A stretch of DNA of 64,000 bases from Glaciihabitans arcticus (lineage in GTDB: Bacteria > Actinomycetota > Actinomycetes > Actinomycetales > Microbacteriaceae). The number at the start of each line of letters is the position of its first letter. The stretch's first letter is position 1. The translations under genes were made by a program, and so were the position numbers. This document shows, piece after piece, positions 48,227-64,000 of the stretch. Below the pieces are notes generated by a model. The model ran no database searches. It was given only the letters and a program-made list of their open reading frames with translations, and was not told where the DNA came from. The stretch covers positions 2,170,001-2,234,000 of the forward strand of contig NZ_SISG01000001.1 in assembly GCF_004310685.1 (NCBI RefSeq), in the 5' to 3' direction.

Positions 48227-48258
48227 ATGCTGGCCGCCGCTCTCGCGGCGGCCAGCAT
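48227..48258 (-). terminator. Strong hairpin after the major pilin gene
   Basis: A perfect 14-base stem (ATGCTGGCCGCCGC at 48227-48240, complement at 48245-48258) with a 4-base loop lies 18 bases past the pilin stop and is followed on the minus strand by ATTTCC. Placed inside the operon, it is likely a partial terminator or 3' stabiliser that raises pilin mRNA over the downstream minor pilin genes. Confidence 0.7.
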
Positions 48259-48276
48259 CACTGAGCTAGCTCAGAC

Positions 48277-48732
48277 TTACGGAGCGTCGATAACGCCGGT
48301 TGCGCTGGAGTAGGTCCAGACGTCGCCGGTGCGCTGCAGGTGTCCACCGGTGAGGGTGTACTCGCCCGGGTTGGCGGTGTCGAGTGCGAACGTCAGCGTG
48401 ACGTCCTCGGTGCTGTTGAAGCCAGCGTCCGACCATGCTGCGGGAACCGAAGCGGCGGTGCCGTTGGAGACCGCACCCACGAGGGTGTCGGCGCCGTCAA
48501 CGTAGGATCCGTTGTGCTCGACCGAGAACTGCGTTGCTGCAATTGCCGCGTTCTTGATGTCGGACTCGACCTGCGAGGCCCATGCACCCTGGCGCTGGTT
48601 GAGGAACGCCGGGATGGCGATCGCGGCCAGAACGCCGATGATGAGGATAACGACGAGCAGCTCGATGAGCGTGAAGCCCTTTTCGCCGTTCTCGCGCTTC
48701 TTCGCGATTGAGTTGTTGATTGTTGCGATCAT
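48277..48732 (-). CDS. pilA: Major type IV pilin
   Basis: A 151-residue prepilin with leader MIATINNSIAKKRENGEKG and mature start FTLIELLVVILIIGVLAAIAIPAF, the classic class IVa sequence with Glu+5. The globular part is short (about 105 residues) with no Cys pair, so it lacks the disulfide loop of Gram-negative pilins. It lies between pilC and the minor pilin genes, with its own 154-base upstream gap and a terminator-like hairpin behind it. Confidence 0.95.
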   Translation of the reverse strand: MIATINNSIAKKRENGEKGFTLIELLVVILIIGVLAAIAIPAFLNQRQGAWASQVESDIKNAAIAATQFSVEHNGSYVDGADTLVGAVSNGTAASVPAAWSDAGFNSTEDVTLTFALDTANPGEYTLTGGHLQRTGDVWTYSSATGVIDAP

Positions 48733-48867
48733 TACGATCTCTTTCCTGTCAGGTGAAACTGGTGTTTGGACAGGTGGCCCCCATTAAGAAACTGACCCCC
48801 ACACACATCGTGCTGTACTGACCATTGCTCCGTAACCCCGCGAAGTGGGGGTATGTCGCTGATTACT

Positions 48868-48883
48868 GCCCCCAGTAGGGGGC
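48868..48883 (-). terminator. Small GC hairpin between pilC and pilin gene
   Basis: GCCCCC-AGTA-GGGGGC begins 4 bases after the pilC stop; a second CCCC/GGGG pairing follows at 48836-48852. They may attenuate read-through from pilBTC, leaving the pilin on its own promoter, which I could not define. Confidence 0.4.
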
Positions 48884-48886
48884 GCG

Positions 48887-50131: not shown

Positions 50132-51861
50132 CAGTTGCCGCTCGAGTAGCTGTCGCCGAAGTTGACCGCTGCGGCGCTCGACTCACCCGTGCGAGTGACG
50201 AGGCGCTTGAGCACCTCTTCGTCGTGCACCTTCTCGGCTGCTGCCGAGTAGCTGATCTGGCCCGCGTTCACGAGGTCGGCGAGGTGCTGGTCCATGGTGT
50301 GCATCCCGAGCTCACGACCGGCCTGCATGGCGGACTGCACCTGGTAGGTCTTGCCCTCACGGATGAGGTTCGCGACGGCGGGTGTGGTGATGAGCACCTC
50401 GGTGGCGACCGCTCGGCCGCCTCCGATCTTCTTGACGAGGGTCTGACAGACCACGCCCTGCAGGGTTGCCGCGAGCTGGGCTCGCACCTGGCCCTGTTGG
50501 TGCGGCGGGAACACGTCGATGACACGGTCGATCGTTTGCGGGGCATCCTGCGTGTGCAGGGTCGCGAAGACGAGGTGACCGGTCTCGGCGGCGGTGAGGG
50601 CAACCGAGATCGTCTCGAGGTCTCGAAGCTCACCGATGAGGATGACGTCGGGGTCCTGCCGCAGCACGTGCTTGAGCGCGTTCTGGAAGCTGTGGGTGTC
50701 GGCGCCGACCTCGCGCTGGTTGACGACCGACTTCTTGTTGGTGTGCATGAACTCGATCGGGTCTTCGACCGTCACGATGTGGTCGGCACGGGTCGAGTTG
50801 ACGAGGTCGATGAGGGCCGCGAGAGTTGTGGACTTTCCCGAACCGGTCGGGCCCGTGACGAGCACGAGTCCGCGGGCGAGGGTCGCGAAGCGCGCGATGC
50901 TCTCGGGGATACCGAGCGAGGACAACTGCTTGATCTCGGTCGGGATAAGACGGAAGGCCGCACCCATCGAGTGCCGCTGCTGGTAGACGTTGACGCGGAA
51001 TCGCGCGCTGTCCGAGAGGCGGTAGGCGAAGTCGAGTTCGAGCTTCTCCTCGAAGATCTCGCGGTTCTTGGGCGACATGATGCTGTGCAGCACCTTGGCG
51101 ACCTTCTCAGAGTCCCAGGTCTCCATGCCGGGTGCGGGGCGCAGGCCGCCGTCGACGCGGATCATGGGCGTCGACTTGGCAGTGACGTGGAGGTCGGAGG
51201 CGCGGGCCGTGACGACGGCGTTCAGCGCGGCGACGAGGTCGGGGTCGCTGCCCTCTTCACCCTCGCCGACCTGCGGTGACAGGTCGATGACTGCCTCGGC
51301 AGCCGGCGCGGTGGAGACCTCGGGAAGCTTGTGGGCAGGACCGTTGCGGGTCGCGGCTGCAGCGGCCTCGACGGCTGCGGCTGCGGCAGCAGCCGCTGCA
51401 AGGTCGGGCTGAGGAGCTGCAACAGGCGCTGCGACCGGAGGGGCGGCAACCGGCGCCGCTGAGGCGGGAACCGGGAACGGCGCGGTGAAGGCGGGAGCCG
51501 CAAACGCAGCGGTGGGAGCCGCCTCGAGTGCGGAGGGCGCGGCGTGCGGCGCCGAGGGCGGCGGCATCGACGGGAAGGACGCGTCGAACGACGGCGGCGG
51601 GAAGGCCGGGGCCGAGGGGTACGCGGGCGGCGGAGCCGAGGCGTACGACGGCGCGGGAGGAGCCGAGGGGTTCAGGAGCGCGTCGAAGGGCGAGGCGCCG
51701 GGAGCGTCGTATCCACCGAGGTCGTGCACCGGTCCCGAGGAGACGGGCGTGTTGAAGCGCTCGAACTCGGTCTGGGCCGGTGCAGGCGAAGCCGTACCCG
51801 GCACGGGTGCCGGCCAGGACTCGCCGTCGCCGATCGGGATCTCATACACGGGCTTGTTCAT
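50131..51861 (-). CDS. pilT: Twitching motility retraction ATPase PilT with long Pro/Ala-rich N-terminus
   Basis: A 576-residue secretion ATPase. The C-terminal 370 residues are classic PilT: Walker A GPTGSGKSTTLAAL, Asp box, Walker B DVILIGELRD, His box TLHTQDAPQTIDRVID, and the PilT-specific ANLIREGK retraction motif followed by LGMHTMDQHLADLV. The first 205 residues are a Pro/Ala/Ser-rich disordered region absent from typical PilT (about 345-370 residues). The ATG at 51861 overlaps the pilB stop by four bases (ATGA). Confidence 0.94.
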   Translation of the reverse strand: MNKPVYEIPIGDGESWPAPVPGTASPAPAQTEFERFNTPVSSGPVHDLGGYDAPGASPFDALLNPSAPPAPSYASAPPPAYPSAPAFPPPSFDASFPSMPPPSAPHAAPSALEAAPTAAFAAPAFTAPFPVPASAAPVAAPPVAAPVAAPQPDLAAAAAAAAAVEAAAAATRNGPAHKLPEVSTAPAAEAVIDLSPQVGEGEEGSDPDLVAALNAVVTARASDLHVTAKSTPMIRVDGGLRPAPGMETWDSEKVAKVLHSIMSPKNREIFEEKLELDFAYRLSDSARFRVNVYQQRHSMGAAFRLIPTEIKQLSSLGIPESIARFATLARGLVLVTGPTGSGKSTTLAALIDLVNSTRADHIVTVEDPIEFMHTNKKSVVNQREVGADTHSFQNALKHVLRQDPDVILIGELRDLETISVALTAAETGHLVFATLHTQDAPQTIDRVIDVFPPHQQGQVRAQLAATLQGVVCQTLVKKIGGGRAVATEVLITTPAVANLIREGKTYQVQSAMQAGRELGMHTMDQHLADLVNAGQISYSAAAEKVHDEEVLKRLVTRTGESSAAAVNFGDSYSSGN

Positions 51862-53525
51862 ACGACAACTCTCATAATCTCTTCGACCGAAGTCATACCC
51901 ATCTGGACCTTGGCCCAACCGTCAAGGCGGAGCGTCAGCATTCCCTCACTGACGGCGACGCGACCGATCTCCGCAGCCGAGGCGCGGGTGACGGCGAGAC
52001 GCTCGATCTGCTCGGAGACCACCATGACCTCGTGCAGCGCGATGCGCCCGCGGTATCCGGTGTTCGAGCAGTTGGTGCAGCCGACGGGGCGGTAGAGCAC
52101 CGGCAGCGGCATGCTGATGTCGTAGCCGAACCGCAGCGCGGCCAGCTCGTGCGGGTCGTGGTTGTAGGCCTGCTTGCACCTGTCGCAGAGGCGACGGGCG
52201 AGGCGCTGAGCGACGACAGAGTCGAGGGCGGAACCCACGAGGAACGGCTCGATGTCCATCTCGGTGAGTCGCGTGATCGCGCTCGGCGCGTCGTTGGTGT
52301 GAAGCGTGGACAGCACGAGGTGACCGGTGAGCGAGGCTTCGATGGCGATCTGGGCCGTCTCGTGGTCACGGATCTCACCGATGAGAACGACGTCGGGGTC
52401 GGATCGCAGGATCGAGCGCAGCGCACTGGCGAACGTGAGTCCGGCCTTGTTGTTCACCTGCACCTGGTTGATTCCGGGCATCCGGAACTCGACCGGGTCT
52501 TCGACGGTGATGACGTTGATCTCGGGCTTCGCGACGGTCTGGAGCGTGGTGTACAGCGTCGTGGACTTGCCGGAACCGGTCGGGCCGGTCACGAGGATCA
52601 TGCCGTACGGCTTGGTGTACGAGTTGCGGTACGCCTCGGCGTTGCGCGGCAGCAGCGCCAGGTTCTCCATGGCGAGCGAGCTCGACGTGTTGTCGAGGAT
52701 TCGCATGACCACCTTCTCTCCCCAGACGGTGGGGAGGGTGGCGACGCGGAGGTCGATCTTGCGGCCACCGTGGCTGACCGACATGCGGCCGTCCTGGGGC
52801 TTGCGACGCTCGGCGATGTCGATGTCGCTCATGATCTTGAGGCGCGAGGTCACGCCATTCTGAATGGCCTTCGGCGCGGACTGCATCTCGTGCAGCACAC
52901 CGTCGATGCGGTAGCGCACGTGCATCTCGTGCTCACCGGGCTCGATGTGGATATCGGAGGCCTTGTCCTGGATGGCTTGACTGATGAGCAGGTTGACGAA
53001 GCGCACAATGGGTGCGTCGTCCTCGATGGGGGCGTCACCCGCCATGACCATCTCGGTGCCACTGCTCTCCTCCTCCAGCGCGGAGGTGAGGTCGCTCAGT
53101 TCGCCGTCGGCGCGGTGGAACCGGTCGATGGCGGTCTTGAGGTCACCGGGTGCGGCGACAACGGCCTTGACCTGCATGCGGGAGACGGCACGCACGTCGT
53201 CGATCGCGAAGACGTCGCCGGGGTCGACCATGGCGAGGGTGAGGATGTCACCGATCACGCCGATGGGCAGCACCTGGTAGCGACGGCACATGGCCGCGGG
53301 CACAAGGGATACCGCGGTGCGGTCTACGGGGAACTCGAGGAGTTCGACGAAGGGAAGCTCGGCCTGGGCAGCGCGCGCTGACGCGAGCTGCACCTCGGTG
53401 ACGATGCCCTTCTCGACGAGCGAGCGCACGGCATCCTCGTCTTCACCCCATTGACCCGAAATCGAGTCGAGGTTTTCAATCGGGACGACGCCACGAAGAA
53501 TAAGGATCTCAGTAAGGGTTGCCAT
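51858..53525 (-). CDS. pilB: Type IV pilus extension ATPase PilB
   Basis: A 555-residue ATPase. The N-terminal MshEN/T2SSE-N domain (about 1-150; MSR-like pattern LVEKGIVTEVQLASARAAQ) could bind c-di-GMP in some relatives. The motor has Walker A GPTGSGKSTTLYT, DPVEFRMPGINQVQVN, Walker B DVVLIGEIRDHET, and a CDRCK...CTNC tetracysteine zinc site. First gene of the pilus operon. Confidence 0.95.
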   Translation of the reverse strand: MATLTEILILRGVVPIENLDSISGQWGEDEDAVRSLVEKGIVTEVQLASARAAQAELPFVELLEFPVDRTAVSLVPAAMCRRYQVLPIGVIGDILTLAMVDPGDVFAIDDVRAVSRMQVKAVVAAPGDLKTAIDRFHRADGELSDLTSALEEESSGTEMVMAGDAPIEDDAPIVRFVNLLISQAIQDKASDIHIEPGEHEMHVRYRIDGVLHEMQSAPKAIQNGVTSRLKIMSDIDIAERRKPQDGRMSVSHGGRKIDLRVATLPTVWGEKVVMRILDNTSSSLAMENLALLPRNAEAYRNSYTKPYGMILVTGPTGSGKSTTLYTTLQTVAKPEINVITVEDPVEFRMPGINQVQVNNKAGLTFASALRSILRSDPDVVLIGEIRDHETAQIAIEASLTGHLVLSTLHTNDAPSAITRLTEMDIEPFLVGSALDSVVAQRLARRLCDRCKQAYNHDPHELAALRFGYDISMPLPVLYRPVGCTNCSNTGYRGRIALHEVMVVSEQIERLAVTRASAAEIGRVAVSEGMLTLRLDGWAKVQMGMTSVEEIMRVVV

Positions 53526-53677: not shown

Positions 53678-54385
53678 TCAGCTCGTTGCCAGAAGAACGC
53701 CGATGACGACCCCCGCAATGATCAGAACGGTGAGGATGACGCCCCCGACCACCACGAATCTCAGTCCGCTCGAGCGTCGCGCCCTGCCCTGCTCGGCCGC
53801 GAGCTGCTCGACGGTTCGGGTGGAGCGTCGCACAATTGGCGGCGCGGAGACATCCGCACGCACGACCGGAACGTCGGTGACCGTCGCGCGGATGCCGTAG
53901 CTCTCGCGCTGCCCCTCGCCGAGCCGGGACGGCTGGAAGGCGATGCGCCCGCCCGTGATGGGGGTATCCCCGCGCGGAATGTCGGGCTTCGGCTTCGCCG
54001 GACGCTGGGTGACGATCGTGGAGTCCTCGACCGGGCCGCCGCGTTGCGCAACGACCGTCTCGTCGGCGGGCGCATCCCGATGCACCATGATCGTCTCATC
54101 GGCCGGGGCGGCACGCTGCACCATGACGGTCTCATCGGCGGGCGCCTCGCGGCGCACCATCACCGTCTCGTCGGCGGGCGCCTCGCGCTGCACCATCACC
54201 GTCTCGTCCGCGGGCGCCTCGCGCTGCACCATGATCGTCTCGTCATCGGGCACGGCGCTGCGCTGCACGACCACCGTCTCGTCGGCTGGCGGCTGGGTGC
54301 GCTGCACCATCACGGTCTCGTCGGCCGGCGGAGTGCTTCGCGGCACCACGATGGTCTCTTCGAAAAGATCGTCGTGGTCGGTCAC
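53678..54385 (-). CDS. Tail-anchored protein with ten tandem ET(V/I)xVxR repeats
   Basis: A 235-residue protein of no family I recognise. Residues 9-128 are ten tandem 12-13 residue units of the form (D/E)ET(V/I)(M/V)VQR-xxPAD, with the Thr at 11, 24, 37, 50, 62, 74, 86, 98, 110 and 123. A polar region (PDIPRGDTPITGGRIAFQP...) follows, then a single C-terminal helix (about 210-233, FVVVGGVILTVLIIAGVVIGVLL), giving a tail-anchored membrane protein with the repeats in the cytoplasm. It overlaps the FHA gene by four bases and is the last gene of the MoxR-FHA operon, so I infer that the Thr units are kinase targets and FHA docking sites. Confidence 0.85.
   Translation of the reverse strand: MTDHDDLFEETIVVPRSTPPADETVMVQRTQPPADETVVVQRSAVPDDETIMVQREAPADETVMVQREAPADETVMVRREAPADETVMVQRAAPADETIMVHRDAPADETVVAQRGGPVEDSTIVTQRPAKPKPDIPRGDTPITGGRIAFQPSRLGEGQRESYGIRATVTDVPVVRADVSAPPIVRRSTRTVEQLAAEQGRARRSSGLRFVVVGGVILTVLIIAGVVIGVLLATS
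54002..54361 (-). repeat. Tandem 36/39-bp repeats encoding the ETVMVQR array
   Basis: Ten units of 36 or 39 bases in frame, most similar in the middle five (core word CACCGTCTCGTCGGCGGGCGC on the plus strand, slightly varied). The period is a multiple of three, so unit number could change by slippage without frameshift. Confidence 0.85.
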
Positions 54386-55269
54386 GAGCGCGCCACGACC
54401 TTGAACGCGACCTGGTCGCCGATCGCGACGATCATGCCGTCGCTGAGCTCGGCAGGCTCCCCCGGAATTACGCGGAACGCGATGCCGTTCGTCGCCGTCA
54501 CCTCTGTGCCGTTCTTCGAGCCGAGATCCTCGAGCACCACCCGGGTGCCGTCGACCGAGACCTTGAGGTGCGTGCGCGAGATCTTCTGGCGCGGGCTCGC
54601 GACGGGAACGAGCGTGGGCAGCAGCGCGGAGGTCGAGCGCTCGGCACGGGGGCTGCGTCCGATGATGACTGTGCGGTCGACGTCGACCAGGTTGCCGTCG
54701 GTGAACTCGAGCGTCGCCACCGCCGTCGAATTGCGGGCCGGGATGACGACCGTGCGCTCGGGCAGCGCGGACGGACGGGTGACCGGTTCCGGCGCGACGA
54801 GGGCAACGGCCTCGGGGAGGACCGACGCTTCAGATGAGTAGGTGAGGCTCGCGGTGGAGAGCGAGCCGGGGAGAGCGATGCGGGACGCGGAGGTCGCGGC
54901 ATCCGGAGCAGTATCGAACAGCTCGGCGGTCAGGCAACTGGTCTCGAGGAGGCTCGCCCAGGTCTCGACATCCTGCCCGGTGTAGACGACGCGGCCGCCA
55001 TCACGGCGCACCACGCGGATGCCGAGGCGCGAACCGCGGAACTGCGCGCGCACCGAGGGTCCGAAGAACTGCGCGACGACGAAGTCGGGGCGCTTGGTGC
55101 CGGGAGCCTCGAGAATGGCCGCGACGACTTCTTCGGTGCCGCGGGCCGAGGCGACCACCGCGGAGATGTAGGCGGAGGCGCTGCCGGCACCGGGGCCGGC
55201 CAGCATCGCGACGACGTTCGCCCCGATGATCGTGGGGTTGGGTCCGGCGCGGTACTCAGACGACTCCAC
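54382..55269 (-). CDS. FHA-domain protein with novel N-terminal domain
   Basis: A 295-residue cytoplasmic protein. The C-terminal 100 residues are an FHA phosphothreonine-binding domain with all key residues: IIGRSPR (Gly-Arg), ISRTHLKV (Ser and His) and SKNGTEV (Asn). The N-terminal 130 residues (ANVVAMLAGPGAGSASAYISA...RLGIRVV) are of no family I know. The linker holds PERTVVIPAR, similar to the Thr units of the downstream repeat protein. I start at GTG 55269, 11 bases inside the PP2C gene, with AAGGGG upstream; the frame open further upstream is a shadow of the PP2C gene. Confidence 0.87.
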   Translation of the reverse strand: MESSEYRAGPNPTIIGANVVAMLAGPGAGSASAYISAVVASARGTEEVVAAILEAPGTKRPDFVVAQFFGPSVRAQFRGSRLGIRVVRRDGGRVVYTGQDVETWASLLETSCLTAELFDTAPDAATSASRIALPGSLSTASLTYSSEASVLPEAVALVAPEPVTRPSALPERTVVIPARNSTAVATLEFTDGNLVDVDRTVIIGRSPRAERSTSALLPTLVPVASPRQKISRTHLKVSVDGTRVVLEDLGSKNGTEVTATNGIAFRVIPGEPAELSDGMIVAIGDQVAFKVVARS

Positions 55270-56125
55270 GACCGCCCCTTCGCGGGAGCTCGATCGTGGT
55301 GTCCTCGAGCATGTCGTCGATCTCGGCGGGTCGGGCTTCGGCGGCGATCGTCGCCTCCTCGATATCGACGCTGATGCCGCCGGCGATCGCATCGATCACG
55401 AGAACCGTCACGTTGTCGCGACCACCGTGGGCGAGCGCGTCGGCCACGAGGGCATCGGCGGCGGCCTGCGGGTCGAGGTTTGCCACGAGGTGTGCGGCGA
55501 TGCCCTCGTCGGTGACCTCACCGCTGAGCCCGTCGGAGCACAGCACGAGCCTGTCGCCGGTGACGATCGGGTAGAGCCAGAAGTCGGCGTCGCTGTGGTC
55601 GGCACCGACGGCCTTCGTGATGACGTTGCGTCCCGCGTAGGTCGCGAGGTCCTCGCGGGCGAGGGTGCCGTCGTCGATCATCTCCTGCGCGATGGAGTGG
55701 TCGACGGTGAGCTGCACGAAGTCGCCCGAGCGCAGCAGGTAGACGCGCGAGTCGCCGATGTTGAAGACAAGCCAGTGCGGACGGCCGCCCTGGTCGGAGA
55801 TCACCACACCGGTGAGGGTGCTGCCCGCACCGCGCGAGGTGCCCTCGGCGATGACCCGCACCGCGGCGTGCGCACGGTCGAGCGAATCGGCGAGCTCGTT
55901 GGGGGTGACCGCGTCCTTGCCGACGAGACCCGAAAGCTCGAGCACAACGGCCTGGCTGGCCTTGTCCCCCGCTTCGTGGCCGCCCATTCCGTCGGCGACG
56001 ATGTAGACGGGATGCTGCGCGAGCAGCGAATCCTCGTTGACCTTGCGGCGCAGGCCGACATCCGTGCCGGAACCCACGGCGAGGTGAAGCGCCACAGGTG
56101 CTGTCGCGGAGTCGGTCGATGACAT
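55256..56125 (-). CDS. PP2C-type Ser/Thr protein phosphatase
   Basis: A 289-residue PPM phosphatase with all metal-binding motifs: RKVNEDSLL, IVADGMGGHEAGD, GSTLTGVVI, LVLCSDGLSGEVTDE and GGRDNVTVLVI. It is expected to remove phosphate from Thr residues put on by Hanks-type kinases. The C-terminal tail IDDMLEDTTIELPRRGGRG carries a D-T-T-I motif like those of its neighbours. The ATG at 56125 lies 2 bases after the FHA-membrane gene. Confidence 0.94.
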   Translation of the reverse strand: MSSTDSATAPVALHLAVGSGTDVGLRRKVNEDSLLAQHPVYIVADGMGGHEAGDKASQAVVLELSGLVGKDAVTPNELADSLDRAHAAVRVIAEGTSRGAGSTLTGVVISDQGGRPHWLVFNIGDSRVYLLRSGDFVQLTVDHSIAQEMIDDGTLAREDLATYAGRNVITKAVGADHSDADFWLYPIVTGDRLVLCSDGLSGEVTDEGIAAHLVANLDPQAAADALVADALAHGGRDNVTVLVIDAIAGGISVDIEEATIAAEARPAEIDDMLEDTTIELPRRGGRGVV

Positions 56126-56127
56126 GG

Positions 56128-57543
56128 TCAGGCCTCCGGCTGCATTCTGAAGGTCTGTTCCCCCAGTTTGAAGGTGTCGCTGAGCGGCGTCGAGACGCTC
56201 GGCTGCAGCTCGAGTTCCTCGCCCGCCGAGTCGAGCAGGTACACGCCGTTCGTCGACGCCAGGTCGATGATCGACCACACGCCGTCGGCGAGCGTGATCA
56301 GGGCATGGGTTTTCGAGACGGTTTTGGATGGGTCCGGCACGGGAACGAGCTGCGCGTCGGCGGCCGAGCCGCGGGCCGCCGGGTTGCGGCCGATGAGAGC
56401 ACTCGTGCCCTCGATGCGGATGGGGGTGCCACCGACCGGGGTGAGCAGCCAGCCCTGCACGCGTCGACCCGCGATGACCGTGTCGTCGAAGTCGGGCAGG
56501 TCCGCGGCATCGACTACGGGCGCGGGAGCAGTGACGGGGGCCGGTGAGGCGACTGCGACCGGCGCCGCGGGAGCCTGCACCACGGCGGGCGGGGCGACCG
56601 GCTCGGGAGGCGCTACCGGTTCGGGTTCCGGTACGGGCTCGAGCGGAGCAACCGGCTCGGGCTCAGGGACCGGCTCTACGACCGGCGCGGGAGCGGGCGG
56701 CGCGGGTGCCGGGGGCGGCGGCGAGACGGTCATGCCGGGTATCGACGACACGGGCGGAGCCCACGGGTCGGCGGCCGGCGCGACGGGAGGAACGACGGGA
56801 GTAGGCGTGGGCGGCTCGACCAGGGCGGGCGGCATGACGATCTCGACCTGGGCGGGCGGAGGTGCGATGACAGCGGGCGGGGGCGGCGGGGCGCTCACCA
56901 CGGGAGGCGGCGGCGGGGGTGAGTACTTCGGTGCCGCAGGGGGCGGGGGCGGCGGGGCGGGAGCCGCGTAGGCGGGAGCGGGCGGCGGAGGCGGGGCCGG
57001 GAGGCTTCCGGGAATGGAGGACTGCGGCGGTGCGGGCGGACCAGGCGGCGGGGGCGATGAGGAAACGGGGTTCGCGGTGTACGGGTCGACCGGCCCGGGG
57101 AGAGCGGGGGGCATCCCGCCCGTCATGCCGGAACGATACGGAAGCGGCTGCGCGGCTCCCCCGGCGGGAGTCGCGGAACCGAAACCGAGGATCGTCGCCC
57201 AGACCGGCAAGGCCACGATGGCGAGGATCGTGAAACCGATGCCCTTGCCGAAACGCTCGTTGATCTTGTGGATCGACAGGAAGAGGAAGATCGCGGCCAC
57301 GATGTTCACGATCGGCAGCAGGGTGGCGAACGCCCAGAGCGCGTTGTAGCCGCCCAGCTCGAGGATCACCATCGAGTTGACGAAGGGAACCCACGCCTTC
57401 CAGGCCGGCTTGCCGAGCTTCACGAAGACCTTGGACAGCGAGAGGGACAGCCACACGTAGAACGCCGCCGAGATGACCACGCTCACGAGCATGGAGACGA
57501 TCGCGGCACCGACTGCCGCCGAATCCGAGTATGTGGGGTCCAT
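56128..57543 (-). CDS. Membrane FHA protein: N-terminal four-TM domain, Pro-rich linker, C-terminal FHA
   Basis: A 471-residue protein. Residues 1-130 have four hydrophobic helices of the DUF5684-like type (KAWVPFVNSMVILELGGYNALWAF). Residues 145-345 are a Pro/Ala linker with PPPPP and PEPVAPxE runs. The C-terminal FHA domain (about 365-470) retains IGRNP, VSKTH and STNGVY. The motif DFDDTVIAGRR lies just before it, as in GarA/FhaA proteins whose FHA binds their own phosphothreonine. It stops 2 bases before the phosphatase start. Confidence 0.9.
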   Translation of the reverse strand: MDPTYSDSAAVGAAIVSMLVSVVISAAFYVWLSLSLSKVFVKLGKPAWKAWVPFVNSMVILELGGYNALWAFATLLPIVNIVAAIFLFLSIHKINERFGKGIGFTILAIVALPVWATILGFGSATPAGGAAQPLPYRSGMTGGMPPALPGPVDPYTANPVSSSPPPPGPPAPPQSSIPGSLPAPPPPPAPAYAAPAPPPPPPAAPKYSPPPPPPVVSAPPPPPAVIAPPPAQVEIVMPPALVEPPTPTPVVPPVAPAADPWAPPVSSIPGMTVSPPPPAPAPPAPAPVVEPVPEPEPVAPLEPVPEPEPVAPPEPVAPPAVVQAPAAPVAVASPAPVTAPAPVVDAADLPDFDDTVIAGRRVQGWLLTPVGGTPIRIEGTSALIGRNPAARGSAADAQLVPVPDPSKTVSKTHALITLADGVWSIIDLASTNGVYLLDSAGEELELQPSVSTPLSDTFKLGEQTFRMQPEA

Positions 57544-57554
57544 GTGGCCTTACC

Positions 57555-60077
57555 TTATCGTTTTGTGGTCGGTAGTTGAGAGCGCAGGTAGTTGGTGAAC
57601 GACCGCAGCGAGAGCGCCGCCCTGAGTCGTTGCCAACGGGTCAGCCCGGCCGAGAAGGCGAGGCGCTCGGCCTCGACGATCTCCCAGAAGGTGTCGCCGT
57701 CGGCGTCCACCGGCTCGGTCGCGTCGAAGACCGCGCGGTCGGCGAAGCGCGCGAGCTGCACGCCGCGTGGGCTGCCGTAGGAGCGGGCGAGTTCGGTGCG
57801 GGTCTGCGTGGTCGGCGCGGGAAGGCCGTGGTCGAGGGCGGCATCCACGTACTCGTCCCACCCTCCGACGATGCGCTTCTCGGGCACCGTCTCCTTCATG
57901 CGGTCGCGGCGGCGGGTGGCCTTCGCCACGAGGATCGTCACGAACGGAGACAGCAGCACGAGGAGCGCCAGCAGCGAAAGCCCGACAATGCGCAGCACCG
58001 CTGCGAGCCAGGCGAGGTCGATGCCGTTGTCGTCGTCGCTGTTGTCCTGCTGGTCGCCGCCGCTCGGGCTCGCGTCGGGCGGAAGCTGCTCGGTGGCCGA
58101 GTCCTGGATGACCTCGGTCGAGTTCTCGGGGTCGCGCAGGTTCTCGTTGACCGGGTCGAGCGGGTCGCTGTGCTGCGGCGTGACATCCACGGTCGCCCAC
58201 TCGCCGCTCGCGCCCTGCACCTCGAGCCACGCGGTCAGGTTCTTGCCCTCGCACACGCCGGCCTCGCAGGCGGGCAGCGGTTCGCCGGTCTGCCCGACGT
58301 CGTCGAGGGCGAAGCCGAGCACCACCCGCGCCGGGAAGCCGAGGTGCTGCGCGACGAGTGCGGCGGCCACGGCGAACTGCTCGTCGTCACCGACCGCGGA
58401 AACGAGCTGGGTGTCCGCGGTGTCGTTGGTGGAGTTCTGCTTCTCGAGCAGCGACGTGAACAGCTCGTCGATGCGACCGACGGAGTGGCCCGCGAAGCTC
58501 GGCTTGAACGAGTAGTCGCCGAGGTCGTCGGCCCAGGTCGGCGCGAGCGGTTCGGCCTCCTCGGCCTCGCCCTCGGGCACCGGCTCGCCGACGGAGAGAC
58601 CGTGGCTCAGGTAGCCACGGGCGCGCAGGCGCTCGATCAGCTCCTGCAGGCCGGAGCCGCTCGACGACAGCTCCTGTGCGCGCACCCAGTTGACGAGGCT
58701 CTTCGGAATCAGCGCCTCGTCGACGAGACCCTCGCGCGAGTCGGGGGCGACGAGGTCACCCAGGCTGGCTGTGCCAGCGCCCACGACCGCGTCGATCACA
58801 TAGCTGTCGCCCTTTGCGAGCACACCCAGATTGACGGCGGATGACGTGGCCTCGTTGTAGAAGAAGTCCTCGGTGAGAGCGGTGGATCCTGCGCCCTCGA
58901 AGCTCGCGCTCACGAGTGACCCGACGGTGGGCATCCAGATACCCGAATAGTCGCCGACGGTGACGGCGACCTTCTCTTCGCTTCCGCCGCCAGCATCCGG
59001 GCTCAGTCGATACGGGATGCGGATGAACGCCGTCTTCTCGTTCGTGTCGTCGGCGTTCGGGTCGGTGACGCGGAACACCTCGCCGTCGTAGTAGCTGAGC
59101 ACGGCGAGCCGCAGTCGCGTTCCGGCCGGCTGCTCCCCCTCGACGGTGAACAACTCGGAGTCGTAGCTCTGCTCGTCGAAGTAGCTGCGGTACTGCGACA
59201 ACGGGCTCGTGTAGTCGCGCAGGCGCACCTCGGGCTCGATCGTGGTGCGCAGCACCTCGCGCTCGTTGGTCGCGGCGACGACCGGCAGCAGCGCAGCGGA
59301 AGCACCGAGAGAGACGAGCAGGATGACGACCGCAAGGCTCACGCGACGCACGAGCGCACCCAGACCGGAGCGGCCCTGGCGCACACCGCCCTCGCTCTGC
59401 GCGAGGCGGACGGCAACGCGTCGCGCGTAGCTCACCCGCCAGACCAGGAAGCCGAGGGCGAGCAGGAAGCTCGCGAGACCGAGCGCGAGTTCGCGCGGGT
59501 CGAGCAGCGGAAGGCCGGCGATTGTGGAGGATCCGCTGGGAACGGCCGAGCCGAAGATGAGGCCGAACAGCTGCACCGCGAAGGCGACCGGAAGGGCGAT
59601 CCAGTAGGTCTTCTTCGCGCGCCAGGCGATCGAGAGCGCGCCGACCGTACCGAATAGGAAGACCAGGAGCGCGGGAACGAGCAGTCCCTGGTAGGTGCCG
59701 ACCGGGATGGTGACGGTGACGAGCTGCTTCCAGCCGAAGACCGAGGCGGTGAGTAGCGTGAGGAATCCGCCGACCAGTTCGCCGAGGCTCGCGAGGGCGT
59801 CGGGCACCGCGAGCGGCACACCGATCACGAGGTAGGCACCGAGGGTCAGCAGCACAACGGTGAGCCAGGACCAGGAGCGGATGAACGCGGTGAAGGCGAC
59901 CGCCGCGGCAAGCACAACGCTCACCGCGACCAGGATCACAAACGCGGGGGTCTCGTAGATCGGCCACGCGGCGACGGCGCCGAGCACGATCATCCCGATC
60001 AGGAACGCCGCATTGATTGCGAGGAAACGGCCCTCGCTGCGCACGTTCGTCGCCGCACGGCGCCTGCGTTCGCTCAT
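57555..60077 (-). CDS. DUF3488/transglutaminase-like membrane protein lacking catalytic Cys and His
   Basis: An 840-residue membrane protein. About eight N-terminal helices (to about residue 260, TgpA/DUF3488 type) precede an external transglutaminase-like domain, then a helix at 700-725 and a cytoplasmic tail. Residues 563-569 read GDDEQFA where active enzymes have G-x-C-E-Q-F-A: Asp565 replaces the nucleophilic Cys. Thr615 in TAWLEV replaces the His of HAW-x-EV, while Asp631 in TVDVTP remains. I therefore expect a non-catalytic binding domain. It overlaps the DUF58 gene by four bases. Confidence 0.9.
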   Translation of the reverse strand: MSERRRRAATNVRSEGRFLAINAAFLIGMIVLGAVAAWPIYETPAFVILVAVSVVLAAAVAFTAFIRSWSWLTVVLLTLGAYLVIGVPLAVPDALASLGELVGGFLTLLTASVFGWKQLVTVTIPVGTYQGLLVPALLVFLFGTVGALSIAWRAKKTYWIALPVAFAVQLFGLIFGSAVPSGSSTIAGLPLLDPRELALGLASFLLALGFLVWRVSYARRVAVRLAQSEGGVRQGRSGLGALVRRVSLAVVILLVSLGASAALLPVVAATNEREVLRTTIEPEVRLRDYTSPLSQYRSYFDEQSYDSELFTVEGEQPAGTRLRLAVLSYYDGEVFRVTDPNADDTNEKTAFIRIPYRLSPDAGGGSEEKVAVTVGDYSGIWMPTVGSLVSASFEGAGSTALTEDFFYNEATSSAVNLGVLAKGDSYVIDAVVGAGTASLGDLVAPDSREGLVDEALIPKSLVNWVRAQELSSSGSGLQELIERLRARGYLSHGLSVGEPVPEGEAEEAEPLAPTWADDLGDYSFKPSFAGHSVGRIDELFTSLLEKQNSTNDTADTQLVSAVGDDEQFAVAAALVAQHLGFPARVVLGFALDDVGQTGEPLPACEAGVCEGKNLTAWLEVQGASGEWATVDVTPQHSDPLDPVNENLRDPENSTEVIQDSATEQLPPDASPSGGDQQDNSDDDNGIDLAWLAAVLRIVGLSLLALLVLLSPFVTILVAKATRRRDRMKETVPEKRIVGGWDEYVDAALDHGLPAPTTQTRTELARSYGSPRGVQLARFADRAVFDATEPVDADGDTFWEIVEAERLAFSAGLTRWQRLRAALSLRSFTNYLRSQLPTTKR

Positions 60078-61429
60078 CGCGCCGACCTCGCCATCAGCTG
60101 CTTGAGGTCGTCGAGCAGAGCGATCGTGATGACCTTCAGCCCGCTCAGGTTGCGCATCGAGGATTCGGCCGACTGGTCGCAGACCACGGCGACGACGGCG
60201 ACGTTCGTGGGGAACTTCGCGGCGATGGACTGCAGGCGACGCGGGGTGACGAGCGAGCCGCAGAGCACGAAGGCGATCGACATGTCGTGCACGACCTGGC
60301 TCGCGAGCGAGCAGACCTGCTCGATCGGCATGACTGCCGCACCGGACTCGACGGTGCTCAGGTCGTCGAGCAGGCCGCGTGTGCTGAGGATGTTGAGGCT
60401 GCGCACCGACTGCACCGACTCGCGGATGAACTCGGGAATCTCCTCGCTCGCGACGACGGCGATGTCGCGAGCGTCACGGATGGCGCGCACACCGAGCGAA
60501 CCGGCGACGCTCACGGCGAGCTCGAACTCGTCGTCGTTCGCAAACTCGGACTCGTCGAGGCTCAGCACGAGGGCGAGGCGCGTGCGGCGCGTCTCCTCGA
60601 ACTGGCGCACCATGAGCTTGTTCATCTTCGCGGTGGACTTCCAGTGGATGTGCCGGCGCGCGTCACCCTGCGCGTACTCGCGGATCGCGTGGAACGAGAT
60701 GTCGGAGTCGACGACCTGGTTCGAGGCCATGCCCTCGAGGTCCTTGATGAACCCCGCGTTCGTGCTCGGGATCGATGCCGTCTGCGGGTGCACGAAGATG
60801 TCGTGCAGGTCGACCCAGGCGACCTCGCGCTTGAGGATGCCCAGCGGATCGGTGCGCACCGAGGTGACCGGGCCGACGCGGATCACGCCGCGGCGCGGGG
60901 TCGCGATGACAAGCGGTTCCTCGTGGGTGTGGCCGGAGCGCAACAACGGCACGTGCACGTCGGCGAGTCCCTTGCCGGTCGGGATGTCGATGCGCCCGGG
61001 AAGCGCGATGCGCTTGGACACGTTGGTGATCTTCACCCCGCCGTTGACCTCTCCACCGGCGACGACGCGCTCGGTCGTGAGGTCGAGGTCGACTTCGTAG
61101 GAGTGGCCGCCGAACAGGAACGGCACGGCGGCGACCAGCAGCAGCACCGCGACGAAGCCGGCGACGGTGACCTCGGTCCAGCCGAAGATGAGGCCGAGCG
61201 GCAGGGCGACCAGGGCGGCGAGCACGAGCCAGCCGGCGGGCGTCACGGTGTTGCCGACCCAGCGCATGGCACTCACAAAACGGGGCGCGAACCAGCGCCA
61301 GGCGCGGAGTCCCCATACGACGACCGACACGAACCGGCCCCCGCCACGCTTGGTGACGTAACGGGTATGCGTGGCGGTGCCGGTGGAGGCGACCGTCCGG
61401 GAGATGCGGGACTGGGTGTCGAACGTCAC
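60074..61429 (-). CDS. DUF58-family protein
   Basis: A 451-residue protein with two membrane helices near the N-terminus (VTPAGWLVLAALVALPLGLIF and VTVAGFVAVLLLVAAVPFLF) and the DUF58 core REYAQGDARRHIHWKSTAKMNKLMVRQFEETR, followed by a von-Willebrand-like fold. Such proteins are partners of MoxR ATPases, which may chaperone or remodel them. It overlaps both neighbours by four bases. Confidence 0.93.
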   Translation of the reverse strand: MTFDTQSRISRTVASTGTATHTRYVTKRGGGRFVSVVVWGLRAWRWFAPRFVSAMRWVGNTVTPAGWLVLAALVALPLGLIFGWTEVTVAGFVAVLLLVAAVPFLFGGHSYEVDLDLTTERVVAGGEVNGGVKITNVSKRIALPGRIDIPTGKGLADVHVPLLRSGHTHEEPLVIATPRRGVIRVGPVTSVRTDPLGILKREVAWVDLHDIFVHPQTASIPSTNAGFIKDLEGMASNQVVDSDISFHAIREYAQGDARRHIHWKSTAKMNKLMVRQFEETRRTRLALVLSLDESEFANDDEFELAVSVAGSLGVRAIRDARDIAVVASEEIPEFIRESVQSVRSLNILSTRGLLDDLSTVESGAAVMPIEQVCSLASQVVHDMSIAFVLCGSLVTPRRLQSIAAKFPTNVAVVAVVCDQSAESSMRNLSGLKVITIALLDDLKQLMARSAR

Positions 61430-62391
61430 ACGAGATCGTTTCGGGCCGGCGGCACGATGTCGAGCACGATCTGCGCGACAACGGCGTTCGCCGTCACGCC
61501 GTCGAACTCGGCCTCGGCATCGAGAACGAGACGGTGCGAGAGAACGGGCTCGGCGAGCAGCTTCACGTCATCCGGAGTCACGTAGGTGCGACCGTGCGCA
61601 ACGGCCCAGGTCTTCGCGGCCTTGGTGAGGGCGCGGGCGCCACGCACACTCGCTCCCATGCGCACCTGTGTGGCGGTGCGGGTCGCCTCGACGATGCTCG
61701 AGATGTAGTCGAACAGCAGCGGGTTGACGTAGGCCTGGCGGGCGAGGTCGGACATGCCGAGCAGCACCTGCGGGGTGACGACCGGAGCGAGGTCCTGCTT
61801 GACGTCTGCGGTGGCCTCGAGGATGCGCACGGTGGCCGCGCGGTCCGGGTAGCCGAGCGAGGTCTTGATCATAAAGCGGTCGAGCTGAGCTTCGGGCAGT
61901 CGGTAGGTTCCGGCCTGCTCGATCGGGTTCTGGGTGGCGATCACGAGGAACGGCAGGCCGACGGGGCGCGAGTTGCCGTCGACGGTGACCCGGCCCTCCT
62001 CCATGACCTCGAGCAGGGCGGACTGCGTCTTGGCGCTCGCACGGTTGATCTCGTCGGCGAGCACGACGTTGGCGAAGATCGGTCCGTTGTGGAATTCGAA
62101 CTCGCCCTTCTTCTGGTCGTAGACGGTGATGCCCGTGACATCGCCCGGCAGCAGGTCGGGAGTGAACTGGATGCGTGAGCTCGTGCCATCCACCGTCTGC
62201 GACACGGCGCGAGCGAGCGAGGTCTTGCCGGTGCCTGGGAAGTCCTCGAGCAGGATGTGGCCCTCGCTGATCATCGCGGAGAGCACCAGCTCGATCACGT
62301 GGTTCTTGCCGAGCACGGCCTGCTCGACGTTGTCGACCATCTTCGTGAAGGTCTCGGCGAACCACACGGACTGTTCTGGGGTGATCGGCAT
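61426..62391 (-). CDS. moxR: MoxR-family AAA+ ATPase
   Basis: A 321-residue AAA+ ATPase with Walker A FPGTGKTSLARA, Walker B VVLADEINRASAKTQSALLEVMEE, sensor 1 IATQNPIEQ and sensor 2 near the conserved GASVRGARAL. MoxR proteins act as chaperones for partners with DUF58/vWA domains. It starts 33 bases after the surface protein stop. Confidence 0.95.
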   Translation of the reverse strand: MPITPEQSVWFAETFTKMVDNVEQAVLGKNHVIELVLSAMISEGHILLEDFPGTGKTSLARAVSQTVDGTSSRIQFTPDLLPGDVTGITVYDQKKGEFEFHNGPIFANVVLADEINRASAKTQSALLEVMEEGRVTVDGNSRPVGLPFLVIATQNPIEQAGTYRLPEAQLDRFMIKTSLGYPDRAATVRILEATADVKQDLAPVVTPQVLLGMSDLARQAYVNPLLFDYISSIVEATRTATQVRMGASVRGARALTKAAKTWAVAHGRTYVTPDDVKLLAEPVLSHRLVLDAEAEFDGVTANAVVAQIVLDIVPPARNDLV

Positions 62392-62424: not shown

Positions 62425-64000
62425 TTAGAAGCTGCAGTCGGTTTCGGAGTTCGCCGTCCACTGGTACGGCTGCAGGCCGGAGTTGGCACCGCCCCAGTTG
62501 ATGGTTCCCGCGACGTTCCGCACCGTGGCCGCCGTGAGCGGGATATCGCGCGGGTTCGCACCCTCGTCGGGCGTGATGAAGTCGCCGTTCGCGCGCTCGT
62601 AGCGCGCCTGGTCGATCGTTGCGGATCCGCCGGCGCCGCCGCCGACGTTCACGCTGAGGCGCGGGCGCACGCAGGTGACGCCCGAGACGTTCACGCTGAT
62701 CTGCCACGAGCGGTTCGCATCGACCGGGTTGACCGTTCCGTGGCCCGAGCAGCGCTCGGAGCCGAAGACGTTGATGCAGTAGGCGGCGCCGATCGCGGGT
62801 GCGCTGCCGGTGATGTCGGCGCCGCTGCCCTCGGAGTAGCCGCGGTACTTGATGTAGAAGCCGTCTTCGCCAGCGGGCGCGTCCTGGATCGAGATGCGGT
62901 AGTTGCCGTCGCCGCTGCCGTCGCGCACCTTGTAGGTGAAGCCGGTCGGGGCGTCGGGCTGGTCGTACGGGAAGCCGCGGCTCACGTCGCCGACAGCGAG
63001 ACCGAAGCCGTTCGAGTAGCAGAAGAAGACGCCGTACTCGCGGTTCTTCGGCACGGTGATGGTCGAGGTCGTCGACTGGTAGCTGTTGGCAGGCGCCGTG
63101 GCGACGAGTTCGCCACCGGTCGTCGTGTTGATCGAGCAGGTGGGCTTCGTGCCGCGGTAGGCGATGAAGATGCTCTGCGGCGGCTTCGCGCTGAACTTGT
63201 CGTTCACGCCCGTGCCCGCGAGGGTGAGCGAATCCTCTGCCGAGTTGACGACGCCCGAGTCGGTGATGTTCGGCAGGCCGGCCACCTGCATGGTCTGCGT
63301 GTTCGTTCCACCCGCGTCGCCCTGTCCTCGGGGGATCTCGAACTGGCTGATCGGCGTGACCGAGACCTGCTGGCCACCGACCGGCAGCGAGACAGTGGTT
63401 TCGGTGAGCGCGCCGGTGCGGGGCAGCACGTTGTCCTTGCCGGTCACCCGGTAGGAGACGACGGTCGGGTCGGATCCGGTGATCGAGATCTTCACCGATC
63501 CGCGGTCCTGGCTCGTCACACCGTTCTGGTAAACGAGCGTGCGCTCCACGGTGCCCAGCACCGGGGTCGCGTAGGACCAGGCGAGAGTGGTGACGGGTGC
63601 GAGCGACTCGCCTGCGGAGTTGACCGCGTACGCACTGTAGGTGAGCTTCTCGCCGTTGGTGAGTCCGGTGATCTGCGTGCAGACTCCCGCGGTCGTGCAG
63701 GTGCCGACCTTCTTCGGTCCGGTCTTGATCACGAAGCCGGTGAGGTCGGGGTAGGCCGACGCCGAGGCGCCGGGGCTGACCTGAAGGCGGATGCTGCCGT
63801 CGTCGAATGCGGCCTGTTCGACCGAGTCGGGCGTCTTCGGGTAGCCGTGCAGATCGAGGATGAACGTGCCGCGACCGTCATCCGTACTCAACTTGCCCTG
63901 CGCGTCTTCGACGACGAACCGCACCTGGCACTTGGCGCCGGTGACGTCGGGCGCATAGGCGGCGCGGATGCGGGAGTTGTCGGCCACGGAGAATGTGACG
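62425..64000 (-). CDS. Large fibronectin/Ig-like surface protein, partial (5' end beyond window)
   Basis: About 524 C-terminal residues are visible; the frame is open to the window edge. An apparent start at 63987 (GTG) is unlikely, because the upstream codons VTFSV continue a beta-strand. The sequence is a chain of beta-sandwich domains with fibronectin type III features (ITGLTNGEKLTYSAYAVNSAG) and ends QPYQWTANSETDCSF, without a wall-anchor signal. Several Cys pairs suggest an exported location. It is first gene seen of the MoxR-DUF58-FHA operon. Confidence 0.82.
   Translation of the reverse strand, partial: VTFSVADNSRIRAAYAPDVTGAKCQVRFVVEDAQGKLSTDDGRGTFILDLHGYPKTPDSVEQAAFDDGSIRLQVSPGASASAYPDLTGFVIKTGPKKVGTCTTAGVCTQITGLTNGEKLTYSAYAVNSAGESLAPVTTLAWSYATPVLGTVERTLVYQNGVTSQDRGSVKISITGSDPTVVSYRVTGKDNVLPRTGALTETTVSLPVGGQQVSVTPISQFEIPRGQGDAGGTNTQTMQVAGLPNITDSGVVNSAEDSLTLAGTGVNDKFSAKPPQSIFIAYRGTKPTCSINTTTGGELVATAPANSYQSTTSTITVPKNREYGVFFCYSNGFGLAVGDVSRGFPYDQPDAPTGFTYKVRDGSGDGNYRISIQDAPAGEDGFYIKYRGYSEGSGADITGSAPAIGAAYCINVFGSERCSGHGTVNPVDANRSWQISVNVSGVTCVRPRLSVNVGGGAGGSATIDQARYERANGDFITPDEGANPRDIPLTAATVRNVAGTINWGGANSGLQPYQWTANSETDCSF

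Follow-up and report, generated by a model that had tools for sequence, protein, structure and literature searches.

In bifidobacteria, the PFNA cluster consists of pkb2-fn3-aaa-atp-duf58-tgm, with prpC, a seventh gene to which no function is assigned, and in some species fha (PMC8430577). Several FHA systems offer further points of comparison. GarA carries an ETTS motif N-terminal to its FHA domain (PMC12321487), and Rv1747 of Mycobacterium tuberculosis combines two FHA domains with a disordered linker, whereby phosphorylation promotes condensates in vitro and nanoclusters form at the membrane (reviewed in PMC9312465). In the human Hippo pathway, the FHA domain of SLMAP prefers E/D-G-pT-M-x-R/K, binds several phosphothreonines in the MST2 linker and brings a phosphatase (PMC5663475), and in type VI secretion the PpkA-Fha system comprises a membrane kinase, an FHA protein and condensates (PMC12607579). 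In threonine sites that depend on PknA, acidic residues are reported for positions -1, -3 to -6 and +7, besides Pro for -1 and +2, Leu/Val for +3 and Lys/Arg for +4 (PMC7164672).

The stretch of Glaciihabitans arcticus DNA analysed here (64,000 nt, "the window") contains a cluster of adjacent genes, all on the same strand, with the following features:

53678..54385, minus strand: TA, a predicted tail-anchored repeat protein of 235 aa with a GTG start (ORF list, coordinates)
54002..54364, minus strand: array of ten Thr-motif units, TA residues 8-128 (sequence reading, shuffles)
53681..53764, minus strand: predicted hydrophobic anchor at the C-terminus of TA (residues 208-235; sequence)
54382..55269, minus strand: FHA1, an N-terminal domain of about 120 aa, a linker and a C-terminal FHA domain (Pfam PF00498, E 3.7e-10; alignment to the upstream-FHA proteins found in other clusters; model)
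54733..54762, minus strand: FHA1 linker site PERTVVIPAR, residues 170-179 (sequence; alignment; model)
55256..56125, minus strand: PP2C-type phosphatase, 289 aa (Pfam PP2C above cut-off; NCBIfam Stp1_PP2C_phos match below cut-off)
55277..55306, minus strand: PP2C tail site EDTTIELPRR, residues 274-283 (sequence; tails compared)
56128..57543, minus strand: membrane FHA protein of 471 aa, DUF5684, Pro-rich linker and FHA (Pfam PF18936, PF00498)
56461..56493, minus strand: pre-FHA site DFDDTVIAGRR, residues 351-361 of the membrane FHA protein (sequence; aligned rows; model)
56131..56451, minus strand: FHA domain of the membrane FHA protein (sequence; structure search; pocket residues in aligned rows)
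57555..60077, minus strand: TgpA-like membrane protein with transglutaminase fold (Pfam Transglut_core above cut-off)
60074..61429, minus strand: DUF58 protein (Pfam PF01882)
61426..62391, minus strand: MoxR-type AAA+ ATPase (Pfam AAA_3)
62425..64000, minus strand: 3' part of the gene for a protein of 1987 aa that has cadherin-like and bacterial Ig (Big_9) domains (Pfam)

The start of TA overlaps the stop of FHA1 by 4 nt, and the 1987-aa Ig protein extends past the window edge up to a Hanks-type kinase gene. This kinase gene, 4.4 kb beyond the edge, is the first of the cluster; it was found where an earlier note on this DNA had suggested a search, near the upstream end of the operon. The same note had placed the writer elsewhere, which does not hold, since a kinase with intact catalytic motifs opens the same cluster. 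HRDIKPSN and DFG can be read in its sequence (Pfam Pkinase, E 2.3e-39), the active Hanks-type signature of AxK, HRDxKPxN and DFG is present, and HRDxKPxN together with DFG occurs in 71/71 same-layout kinases longer than 300 aa.

The cluster shares with PFNA the order of kinase, large surface protein, MoxR AAA+, DUF58, transglutaminase-like protein, PP2C and FHA, the last two occupying the distal end as in some PFNA species. It differs in that the large protein shows Big_9 and cadherin-like domains only and no FN3 (Pfam, E 0.01), and in that it also encodes a DUF5684-FHA membrane protein and the TA repeat protein. Because FN3 is missing from the 1987-aa protein, we call the cluster PFNA-like rather than strict PFNA. 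By reading, the gene that follows PP2C in five bifidobacteria-type loci has neither such an array nor a terminal hydrophobic segment.

TA has a single hydrophobic segment, at its very end, and is predicted to be a tail-anchored protein whose N-terminal tail with the array is putatively cytoplasmic. The acceptor threonines are residues 11, 24, 37, 50, 62, 74, 86, 98, 110 and 123. Ten units of the form ET(V/I)xVxR had been described; the number is right, while the literal pattern fits 8/10, nine units having ET(V/I) and the tenth DSTI. All four motif items that the earlier note had listed for this operon lie where it had placed them, far above chance; for TA, 0/200 shuffles reached the ten motifs. 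TA matched no Pfam family at E 1 and only one NCBIfam entry (17.8 bits, the cut-off being 770), so that no family above cut-off covers the array among the families scanned. The sites resemble those of PknA only in part: here acidic residues precede and hydrophobic residues follow the Thr, Arg stands at +5 and Pro is lacking. A mycobacterial kinase-motif paper by Prisic and others (2010) is cited in PMC7164672.

A whole-protein similarity search recovered TA relatives in 4/120 family genomes, the own genome included, because the spacers diverge; the loci of relatives were found by anchoring on MoxR instead. The comparison set comprised 63 distinct TA proteins encoded in clusters of the same layout; the window's TA is one of them, and the relatives had been selected in part by their C-terminal hydrophobic segment. 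Over the whole set, the motif had Thr as acceptor in 242 cases and Ser in two (shuffles 3.0 and 2.6). The called proteins carry 0 to 10 strict sites each, at least one in 57/63, and for 46/63 none of 200 shuffles matched the protein's own motif number. Three of the six site-free proteins (L059, L060, L158) gain 3 sites each once the frame is extended upstream, and the loci L068, L113 and L147 possess a TA without a strict site; when a TA frame was looked for in same-layout loci, it was absent in L088, L109 and L142, and none was called in L093. Frames fixed without regard to the acceptor held Thr in 242/280 cases, against a composition share of 7.4%, in a count that omits non-Thr frames three or fewer residues from a Thr site. 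Arg occupied +5 in 92% of 261 loosely defined sites. After reduction to 30 clusters (MoxR below 90% identity), TA still gave 108 Thr and no Ser, and the pre-FHA Thr was present in 30/30.

These data bear on two readings in which phosphorylation plays no part. That the array is a functionless low-complexity repeat expansion would agree with spacers that differ by lineage and with the varying unit number. However, between repeats of one protein the Thr codons differ synonymously (pS 0.52; ACC 128, ACG 104, ACT 6, ACA 4), this synonymous part being the only informative one because Thr is fixed by the motif definition, and the spacers are free to vary (pN about 0.5 for positions +6 to +8); with the near absence of Ser as acceptor, this makes the expansion reading extremely improbable. 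Alternatively, the unphosphorylated motif could be sticky, acting by beta-strand addition or charge complementarity, with Thr kept for its strand propensity. In its favour, strands are readily formed by Thr, Val and Ile alike, and the unit is acidic at one end and basic at the other. If strand propensity were what counts, Val or Ile could take the place of the acceptor Thr, yet these fill only 5 of the 280 frames, and the cluster supplies a kinase, a phosphatase and two FHA proteins. We consider this explanation quite improbable.

The Thr preference was also compared with the remaining genes. Across relatives, the motif is enriched in its Thr version and not in its Ser version, while 163 Thr and 106 Ser sites were counted in the control of 688 unlabelled genes from the same loci (shuffles 133.9 and 111.8). 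Strict sites are not enriched in the kinases (1/62, the window kinase being outside this count), MoxR (0/65) or TgpA (2/65) of the relatives. Same-layout kinase segments had loose sites in 6/72 cases (6 Thr; shuffles 3.0), and the same-layout kinase was rejected as carrier of the array; at the juxtamembrane place the window kinase reads DDEAVL. The extracytoplasmic Ig protein gave 24 Thr and 10 Ser sites (shuffles 11.2 and 9.5) and DUF58 gave 10 Thr and 11 Ser sites (shuffles 3.4 and 3.1), both by the strict pattern. Lacking Thr specificity, the sites of DUF58 were disregarded. The excess Thr sites of the Ig protein partly recur, in related loci, at a single PDGDTVVLDR-like place in its extracytoplasmic part. 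Since these two proteins also show an excess, site excess alone is no proof of function.

The membrane FHA protein carries its site just ahead of its FHA domain. The Thr of this site is kept in 63/63 aligned rows and Arg at +5 in 61/63. Lack of Thr conservation in orthologues would have spoken against the proposal of the earlier note; the motif is conserved in relatives, and it is Thr-specific both in TA and in the pre-FHA segment. In the structure model, whose FHA fold was recognised by structure search, the site lies 10 residues ahead of FHA strand 1. Loose sites occur in 32/68 pre-FHA segments of same-layout loci (33 Thr, 3 Ser; shuffles 2.6 and 2.4), against 2 Thr and 2 Ser in the remainder of the same proteins (shuffles 1.8 and 2.2). 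One locus with an array and no labelled FHA gene (L145) has a Pfam FHA match just upstream of the array and was dismissed as an FHA-less exception, being a gene-calling miss. The pocket residues G-R, S, H and N-G are kept in 63/63 rows of the membrane FHA protein, and FHA1 keeps G-R, S, H and N-G-T in the alignment, in line with the proposal of two FHA readers.

A conserved Thr with an acidic neighbour directly before a canonical FHA domain is reminiscent of GarA/OdhI, in which the Thr motif on the N-terminal side of FHA is phosphorylated, although here the protein is a membrane protein with a single Thr and a DxTVxxxR-like flank instead of ETTS. It might therefore be that the cluster works as a GarA-like switch, in which the phosphorylated pre-FHA Thr folds onto its own FHA domain and the phosphorylated TA array competes and opens it, which would make TA an activator. 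The invariant position of this single Thr argues for such a switch, as does the finding that TA sites resemble the pre-FHA site of their own genome more than those of other genomes (0.379 against a permutation maximum of 0.359; 2000 permutations, 47 loci, relatedness not controlled). The switch alone leaves up to ten strict array sites and the sites on PP2C tails unexplained, and we regard it as rather unlikely. It partly overlaps the explanation that we prefer, and the probabilities attached to the readings do not sum to one.

The other two sites are less uniform. PERTVVIPAR in FHA1 is the weakest, with one acidic residue and R at +6 instead of +5; it lies in a stretch (132-179) with pLDDT below 50 in the structure model, and its Thr is matched in 10/15 aligned related proteins, FHA1 itself included. 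The N-terminal domain of FHA1 was modelled with low confidence, and the idea that this domain derives from a degenerate PP2C was dropped as unsupported (HHalign profile comparison, probability 0.2 of 100). The PP2C tails of same-layout relatives bear strict sites in only 8/44 cases (8 Thr, 3 Ser), and among non-redundant tails a simpler Thr pattern occurs in 18/24 and its Ser version in 6/24. The motif shared by four proteins, as claimed in the earlier note, is real, Thr-specific in TA and in the pre-FHA segment of the membrane FHA protein, partly conserved in FHA1 and present on the PP2C tails of many, not all, relatives. Because PP2C is unlabelled in 19/63 TA-bearing loci, 17 of them from Microbacterium, the eraser is not present everywhere. 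The spread of the sites also bears on a reading in which the array is a decoy that sets a threshold by absorbing the activity of the kinase and the phosphatase, FHA docking being absent. The many equivalent sites on a protein without known domain, in numbers that vary between TA proteins, would suit a sink of this kind. Such a sink needs no site beside FHA domains or on many PP2C tails, and either residue would suit it equally, provided that the kinase accepts Ser; we judge it improbable.

Taken together, we consider it probable, with some reserve, that the cluster constitutes a membrane phosphothreonine circuit with a multivalent rail, in which the kinase writes, the FHA proteins read and PP2C erases. 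The Hanks kinase would phosphorylate Thr in (D/E)(D/E)xT(V/I)xxxR-like sites, up to ten strict ones along the presumably cytoplasmic TA tail as the rail and single ones in the membrane FHA protein just ahead of its FHA domain, on the PP2C tail and in the linker of FHA1. Once phosphorylated, the rail would recruit and cluster the FHA proteins by avidity, these in turn might bring the MoxR-DUF58-TgpA machinery, and PP2C, which bears a site itself, would reset the rail. What is observed comprises the sites and, for TA and the pre-FHA position, their conservation specifically as Thr, together with the intact kinase motifs, the FHA pockets and the adjacent same-strand genes; from these we infer co-transcription, phosphorylation by the cluster's kinase, FHA binding, clustering and any effect on MoxR-DUF58-TgpA. 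The docking network suggested previously is retained as far as the shared conserved Thr motif and the FHA pockets are concerned, and amended in that the kinase belongs to the cluster and the FHA1 and PP2C sites are less conserved. Phosphorylation or binding data for these proteins were not found in open-licence papers. The principle proposed here is the phosphorylation-dependent FHA-linker multivalency at the membrane known from Rv1747; in that case a single ABC transporter holds both the linker and the FHA domains, whereas here the array sits on a separate, predicted tail-anchored protein. SLMAP-MST2 differs in being eukaryotic, with R/K at +3 and with the array in the kinase itself, which is also where the paralogous clusters have their sites. 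For PpkA-Fha, the abstract mentions no repeat array, and the machinery is different. Open-licence full texts, to which the search was confined, yielded no earlier description of such an array.

Comparable sites occur at other places in other clusters. In other loci they were found in 24/51 post-kinase segments (26 Thr, 4 Ser; shuffles 3.0 and 3.6), before the FHA domain in 20/68 cases (24 Thr, no Ser) and on 8/37 PP2C tails (9 Thr, no Ser). In paralogous clusters they lie in the juxtamembrane segment of the kinase, in one case three of them, in L063 and L067 on a pseudokinase, and in bifidobacteria-type loci (E/D)WD(G/S)TVLS precedes the FHA domain in 5/5 labelled FHA proteins. As a tentative extension that may well prove wrong, a fast-evolving and previously undescribed family of membrane-anchored, multivalent phosphothreonine rails could be the organising hub of PFNA-like clusters. 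The array would then be exchangeable, its sites standing on a kinase, a pseudokinase or a stand-alone anchor depending on the cluster, which would suggest an origin of the rail from a kinase minus its catalytic domain, and the number of sites would set how strongly FHA proteins and MoxR-DUF58-TgpA condense at the membrane.

To our knowledge, bacterial Ser/Thr kinases are common, and the role of their phosphothreonines is known for few. Here, conservation alone singles out a putative phosphothreonine array beside writer, readers and eraser, and the control in which Thr and not Ser is enriched fits the FHA reading. If true, the circuit would be an actinobacterial counterpart of eukaryotic multi-phosphothreonine FHA docking, and it would provide a short, concrete peptide with which the function of PFNA-like clusters may be probed.

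The tail-anchored repeat protein (TA) carries ten acceptor threonines in its N-terminal array, each preceded within three positions by two or more acidic residues and followed directly by Val or Ile, with Arg at +5, and none of 200 shuffles of the window protein got to ten motifs. The earlier note had read all ten as ET(V/I) units, which holds for nine of them, the remaining one being DSTI. Its claim of a common Thr motif in four proteins is borne out by the sequence, since besides TA we found DFDDTVIAGRR directly ahead of the FHA domain of the membrane FHA protein, EDTTIELPRR in the PP2C phosphatase tail and PERTVVIPAR in the linker of FHA1, which consists of an N-terminal domain, a linker and an FHA domain. 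The array gene is the distal end of a same-strand cluster, whose order in the direction of transcription is Hanks kinase, a large protein (1987 aa; bacterial Ig and cadherin-like domains), MoxR, DUF58, TgpA, DUF5684-FHA membrane protein, PP2C, FHA1 and TA. Thus, the writer, suggested in the note to lie elsewhere, is encoded by the cluster itself, as its first gene (G000, own genome; C1 and C2, its contigs):

G000:C1:2238388-2239617, minus strand, Hanks kinase of 409 aa, 4.4 kb past the window end
Window 56128-57543, minus strand, DUF5684-FHA membrane protein
Window 54382-55269, minus strand, FHA1
Window 53678-54385, minus strand, TA, 235 aa

Within the window, adjacent genes either share 4 to 14 nt or are separated by gaps of 2 to 33 nt, a spacing that appears operon-like. 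Beyond this kinase, searches of the own genome gave ten more kinase matches, and FHA matches totalled eleven; two FHA matches lie at G000:C2:226923-231576 on the 246-kb second contig, one of them within a 1549-aa frame. By reading, the kinase gene lies directly downstream of rpoC/rpoB-like genes on the same strand (G000:C1:2238388-2245988; L009:8388-15988). In many Microbacterium loci a run of genes for 122, 156 and 704 aa starts after the TA or the DUF5684-FHA gene, and its genes in L088 and L109 read as ribosomal protein S12 and EF-G; therefore, rpoC and rpsL may flank the cluster in such loci. In the window, the TA gene is followed on the same strand by a type IV pilus-like cluster (43397-53525, minus strand; named by reading) with prepilin peptidase, prepilin-like proteins and PilC-, PilT- and PilB-like proteins.

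Because TA diverges too fast, MoxR was chosen as the anchor for finding relatives. The loci comprised the best 80 of a length-limited list of MoxR matches and 60 stretches from other genomes or the own genome. Their genes were called from codon usage and then labelled by means of profiles made from the window cluster. A DUF5684 gene after TgpA defined the same layout, which was found in 75 among the 140 loci and the window; L070 and L145 were added by hand, giving 77. Sources among the loci included Cryobacterium, Microbacterium, Leifsonia, Glaciihabitans, Galbitalea, Microterricola, Arenivirga, Demequina and Cellulomonas. A TA gene, recognized by position and terminal hydrophobic segment, is present in 66 of the 77. 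Six of the other 11 (L056, L062, L074, L076, L086, L106) run into the end of the contig, the DUF5684 gene being the last one called, in L137 a TA frame with four sites had escaped gene calling, a search of the frames of L088, L109 and L142 yielded no TA frame, and L093 has no TA among its called genes. After removal of three TA repeats, identical over the last 60 residues, 63 distinct proteins remained, the window's counted.

A strict site was required to have two or more acidic residues within positions -3 to -1, V/I/L/M at +1 or +2 and R/K at +5. The 63 TA proteins contain 242 such sites on Thr and 2 on Ser (shuffles 3.0 and 2.6), so that the threonine, whose lack of conservation the earlier note had named as refuting its reading, is kept in relatives. 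At least one strict site occurs in 57 of the 63; L059, L060 and L158 show three each once the frame is read further upstream, and L068, L113 and L147 have none. A looser rule gave T 264 and S 12 (shuffles 12.2, 10.3). With the strict frame fixed and the acceptor free, Thr fills 242 of 280 frames, Ser one, and Val and Ile together five, non-Thr frames three residues or fewer from a Thr site being excluded. In a set of 30 clusters whose MoxR proteins share less than 90% identity, TA had 108 sites on Thr and 0 on Ser, and 28 of the 30 had a site. The unlabelled genes of the same loci (n = 688) gave T 163 and S 106 (shuffles 133.9, 111.8). Since Thr is needed and neither Ser nor Val/Ile is accepted, the TA pattern fits an FHA-read phosphothreonine better than it fits a linker that is charged or forms strands. 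Another short motif, Tyr followed by Arg two or three residues on, stands shortly before the anchor in 58 of 63 TA proteins (shuffles 21.7) and supports their common descent.

The pre-FHA Thr of the membrane FHA protein is present in 63 of 63 aligned rows (61 TA-bearing loci with a called membrane FHA gene, plus L137 and L142) and Arg at +5 in 61; the FHA pocket residues are invariant, and in the aligned linker upstream of the Thr a single Pro column alone reaches at least 85%. In a model of the last 150 residues, the Thr is residue 34, ten residues ahead of strand 1 of an FHA fold modelled with confidence; mean pLDDT is 67 for its block, with 54 to 62 in what precedes and at least 93 in what follows. 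Solved FHA domains matching the model include CEP170, CT664, MDC1, FhaA, ArnA and GarA/OdhI. Of the PP2C proteins, 8 of 44 carry strict Thr sites (T 8, S 3; shuffles 1.6, 1.4), and 11 of 45 tails carry looser ones (T 18, S 0; shuffles 1.6, 1.0), whereby two neighbouring Thr in one tail may both count. Of the 75 same-layout loci, the window alone was found to have FHA1 between PP2C and TA. FHA1 shares 21-27% identity with 14 aligned FHA proteins whose genes, in other clusters, lie upstream of the kinase gene, and 10 of the 15 rows, FHA1 counted, match its linker Thr. Its N-terminal domain (window 54910-55269, minus strand) is common to such upstream-encoded FHA proteins and, in the window protein, matched no Pfam family; a PP2C origin was unsupported by profile comparison. 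Kinase, MoxR and TgpA showed no site enrichment (strict T 1, 0, 2), DUF58 sites are not Thr-specific (strict T 10, S 11); a moderate strict-site excess was seen in the Ig protein (T 24, S 10; shuffles 11.2, 9.5). In several same-layout loci (e.g., L057, L140), this large extracytoplasmic protein has a recurring PDGDTVVLDR near residue 940-950, which matches the strict site by sequence and is probably part of a domain fold.

Two more kinase-MoxR-DUF58-TgpA-FHA clusters were found in the own genome. The kinase of L157 (G000:C1:212783-232782) has three sites between catalytic domain and membrane segment (NETRVRSV, EETRIRPV, EETIVRPR), and two FHA proteins there also bear sites; the kinase of L156 (G000:C1:517725-537724) has one, EDRTRVRG. 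A kinase with a long C-terminal GAF-like part (by reading; L157:779-2239) adjoins this L157 cluster, which is PFNA-like. Across loci not of the same layout, 24 of the 51 post-kinase segments have such Thr sites (T 26, S 4; shuffles 3.0, 3.6), as have 20 of the 68 segments ahead of FHA domains (T 24, S 0; shuffles 1.6, 1.9), and the N-terminal rest of their FHA proteins gave T 9 and S 4 (shuffles 3.8, 3.5). Two loci encode a kinase-like domain at the TA position, with Pfam PK_Tyr_Ser-Thr above cut-off in both:

L063:17115-18461, kinase-like and Thr-motif array protein
L067:17139-18512, kinase-like and Thr-motif array protein

By reading, this domain is without glycine loop, HRD and DFG, and it is fused to DHTVLSxR-like units and a terminal membrane anchor.

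The bifidobacterial PFNA cluster and its order are known, its AAA-ATPase is phosphorylated by Pkb2 and its seventh gene is of unknown function (PMC8430577). Nine stretches of one order-mate family resemble this cluster, and their gene order suggests Bifidobacteriaceae. L176 and L177 have the published order (kinase-large protein-MoxR-DUF58-TgpA-PP2C-unknown-FHA), and in L181, L185 and L186 the FHA gene is on the opposite strand. No TA array was seen in these five loci, which were read in detail; (E/D)WD(G/S)TVLS precedes the FHA domain in all five labelled FHA proteins, and the PP2C ends read as DAT(L/V)QT-like in four and DSTMQS in one. The product of the gene after PP2C has conserved blocks at both ends (NPEFGANVAxxPRxYPGLxRW-like and NPxxYPxLxxWL-like) and is not a TA relative. 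In SLMAP-MST2 an FHA domain reads a multi-pThr kinase linker and a phosphatase is recruited (PMC5663475), GarA is phosphorylated on a pre-FHA Thr (PMC12321487), Rv1747 forms FHA-linker condensates and membrane clusters (PMC9312465, review) and PpkA-Fha forms kinase-FHA condensates (PMC12607579). PknA-dependent sites have acidic residues before Thr, Leu/Val at +3, a basic residue at +4 and Pro at -1 and +2 (PMC7164672), a preference partly similar to the window motif, whereby the two Pro are a feature of PknA sites. The accessible parts of the papers on these six systems gave no description of the TA array, nor was a mention found in the open-licence literature searched.

The motif is a real, Thr-specific and conserved linear motif of the kinase-FHA-phosphatase cluster. 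The main rivals for its mechanism are a kinase sink and a fold-back switch that would be opened by a phosphothreonine rail. Most likely, the array is itself a membrane-tethered multivalent phosphothreonine rail, whose threonines, we infer, would be phosphorylated and, once phosphorylated, bound.
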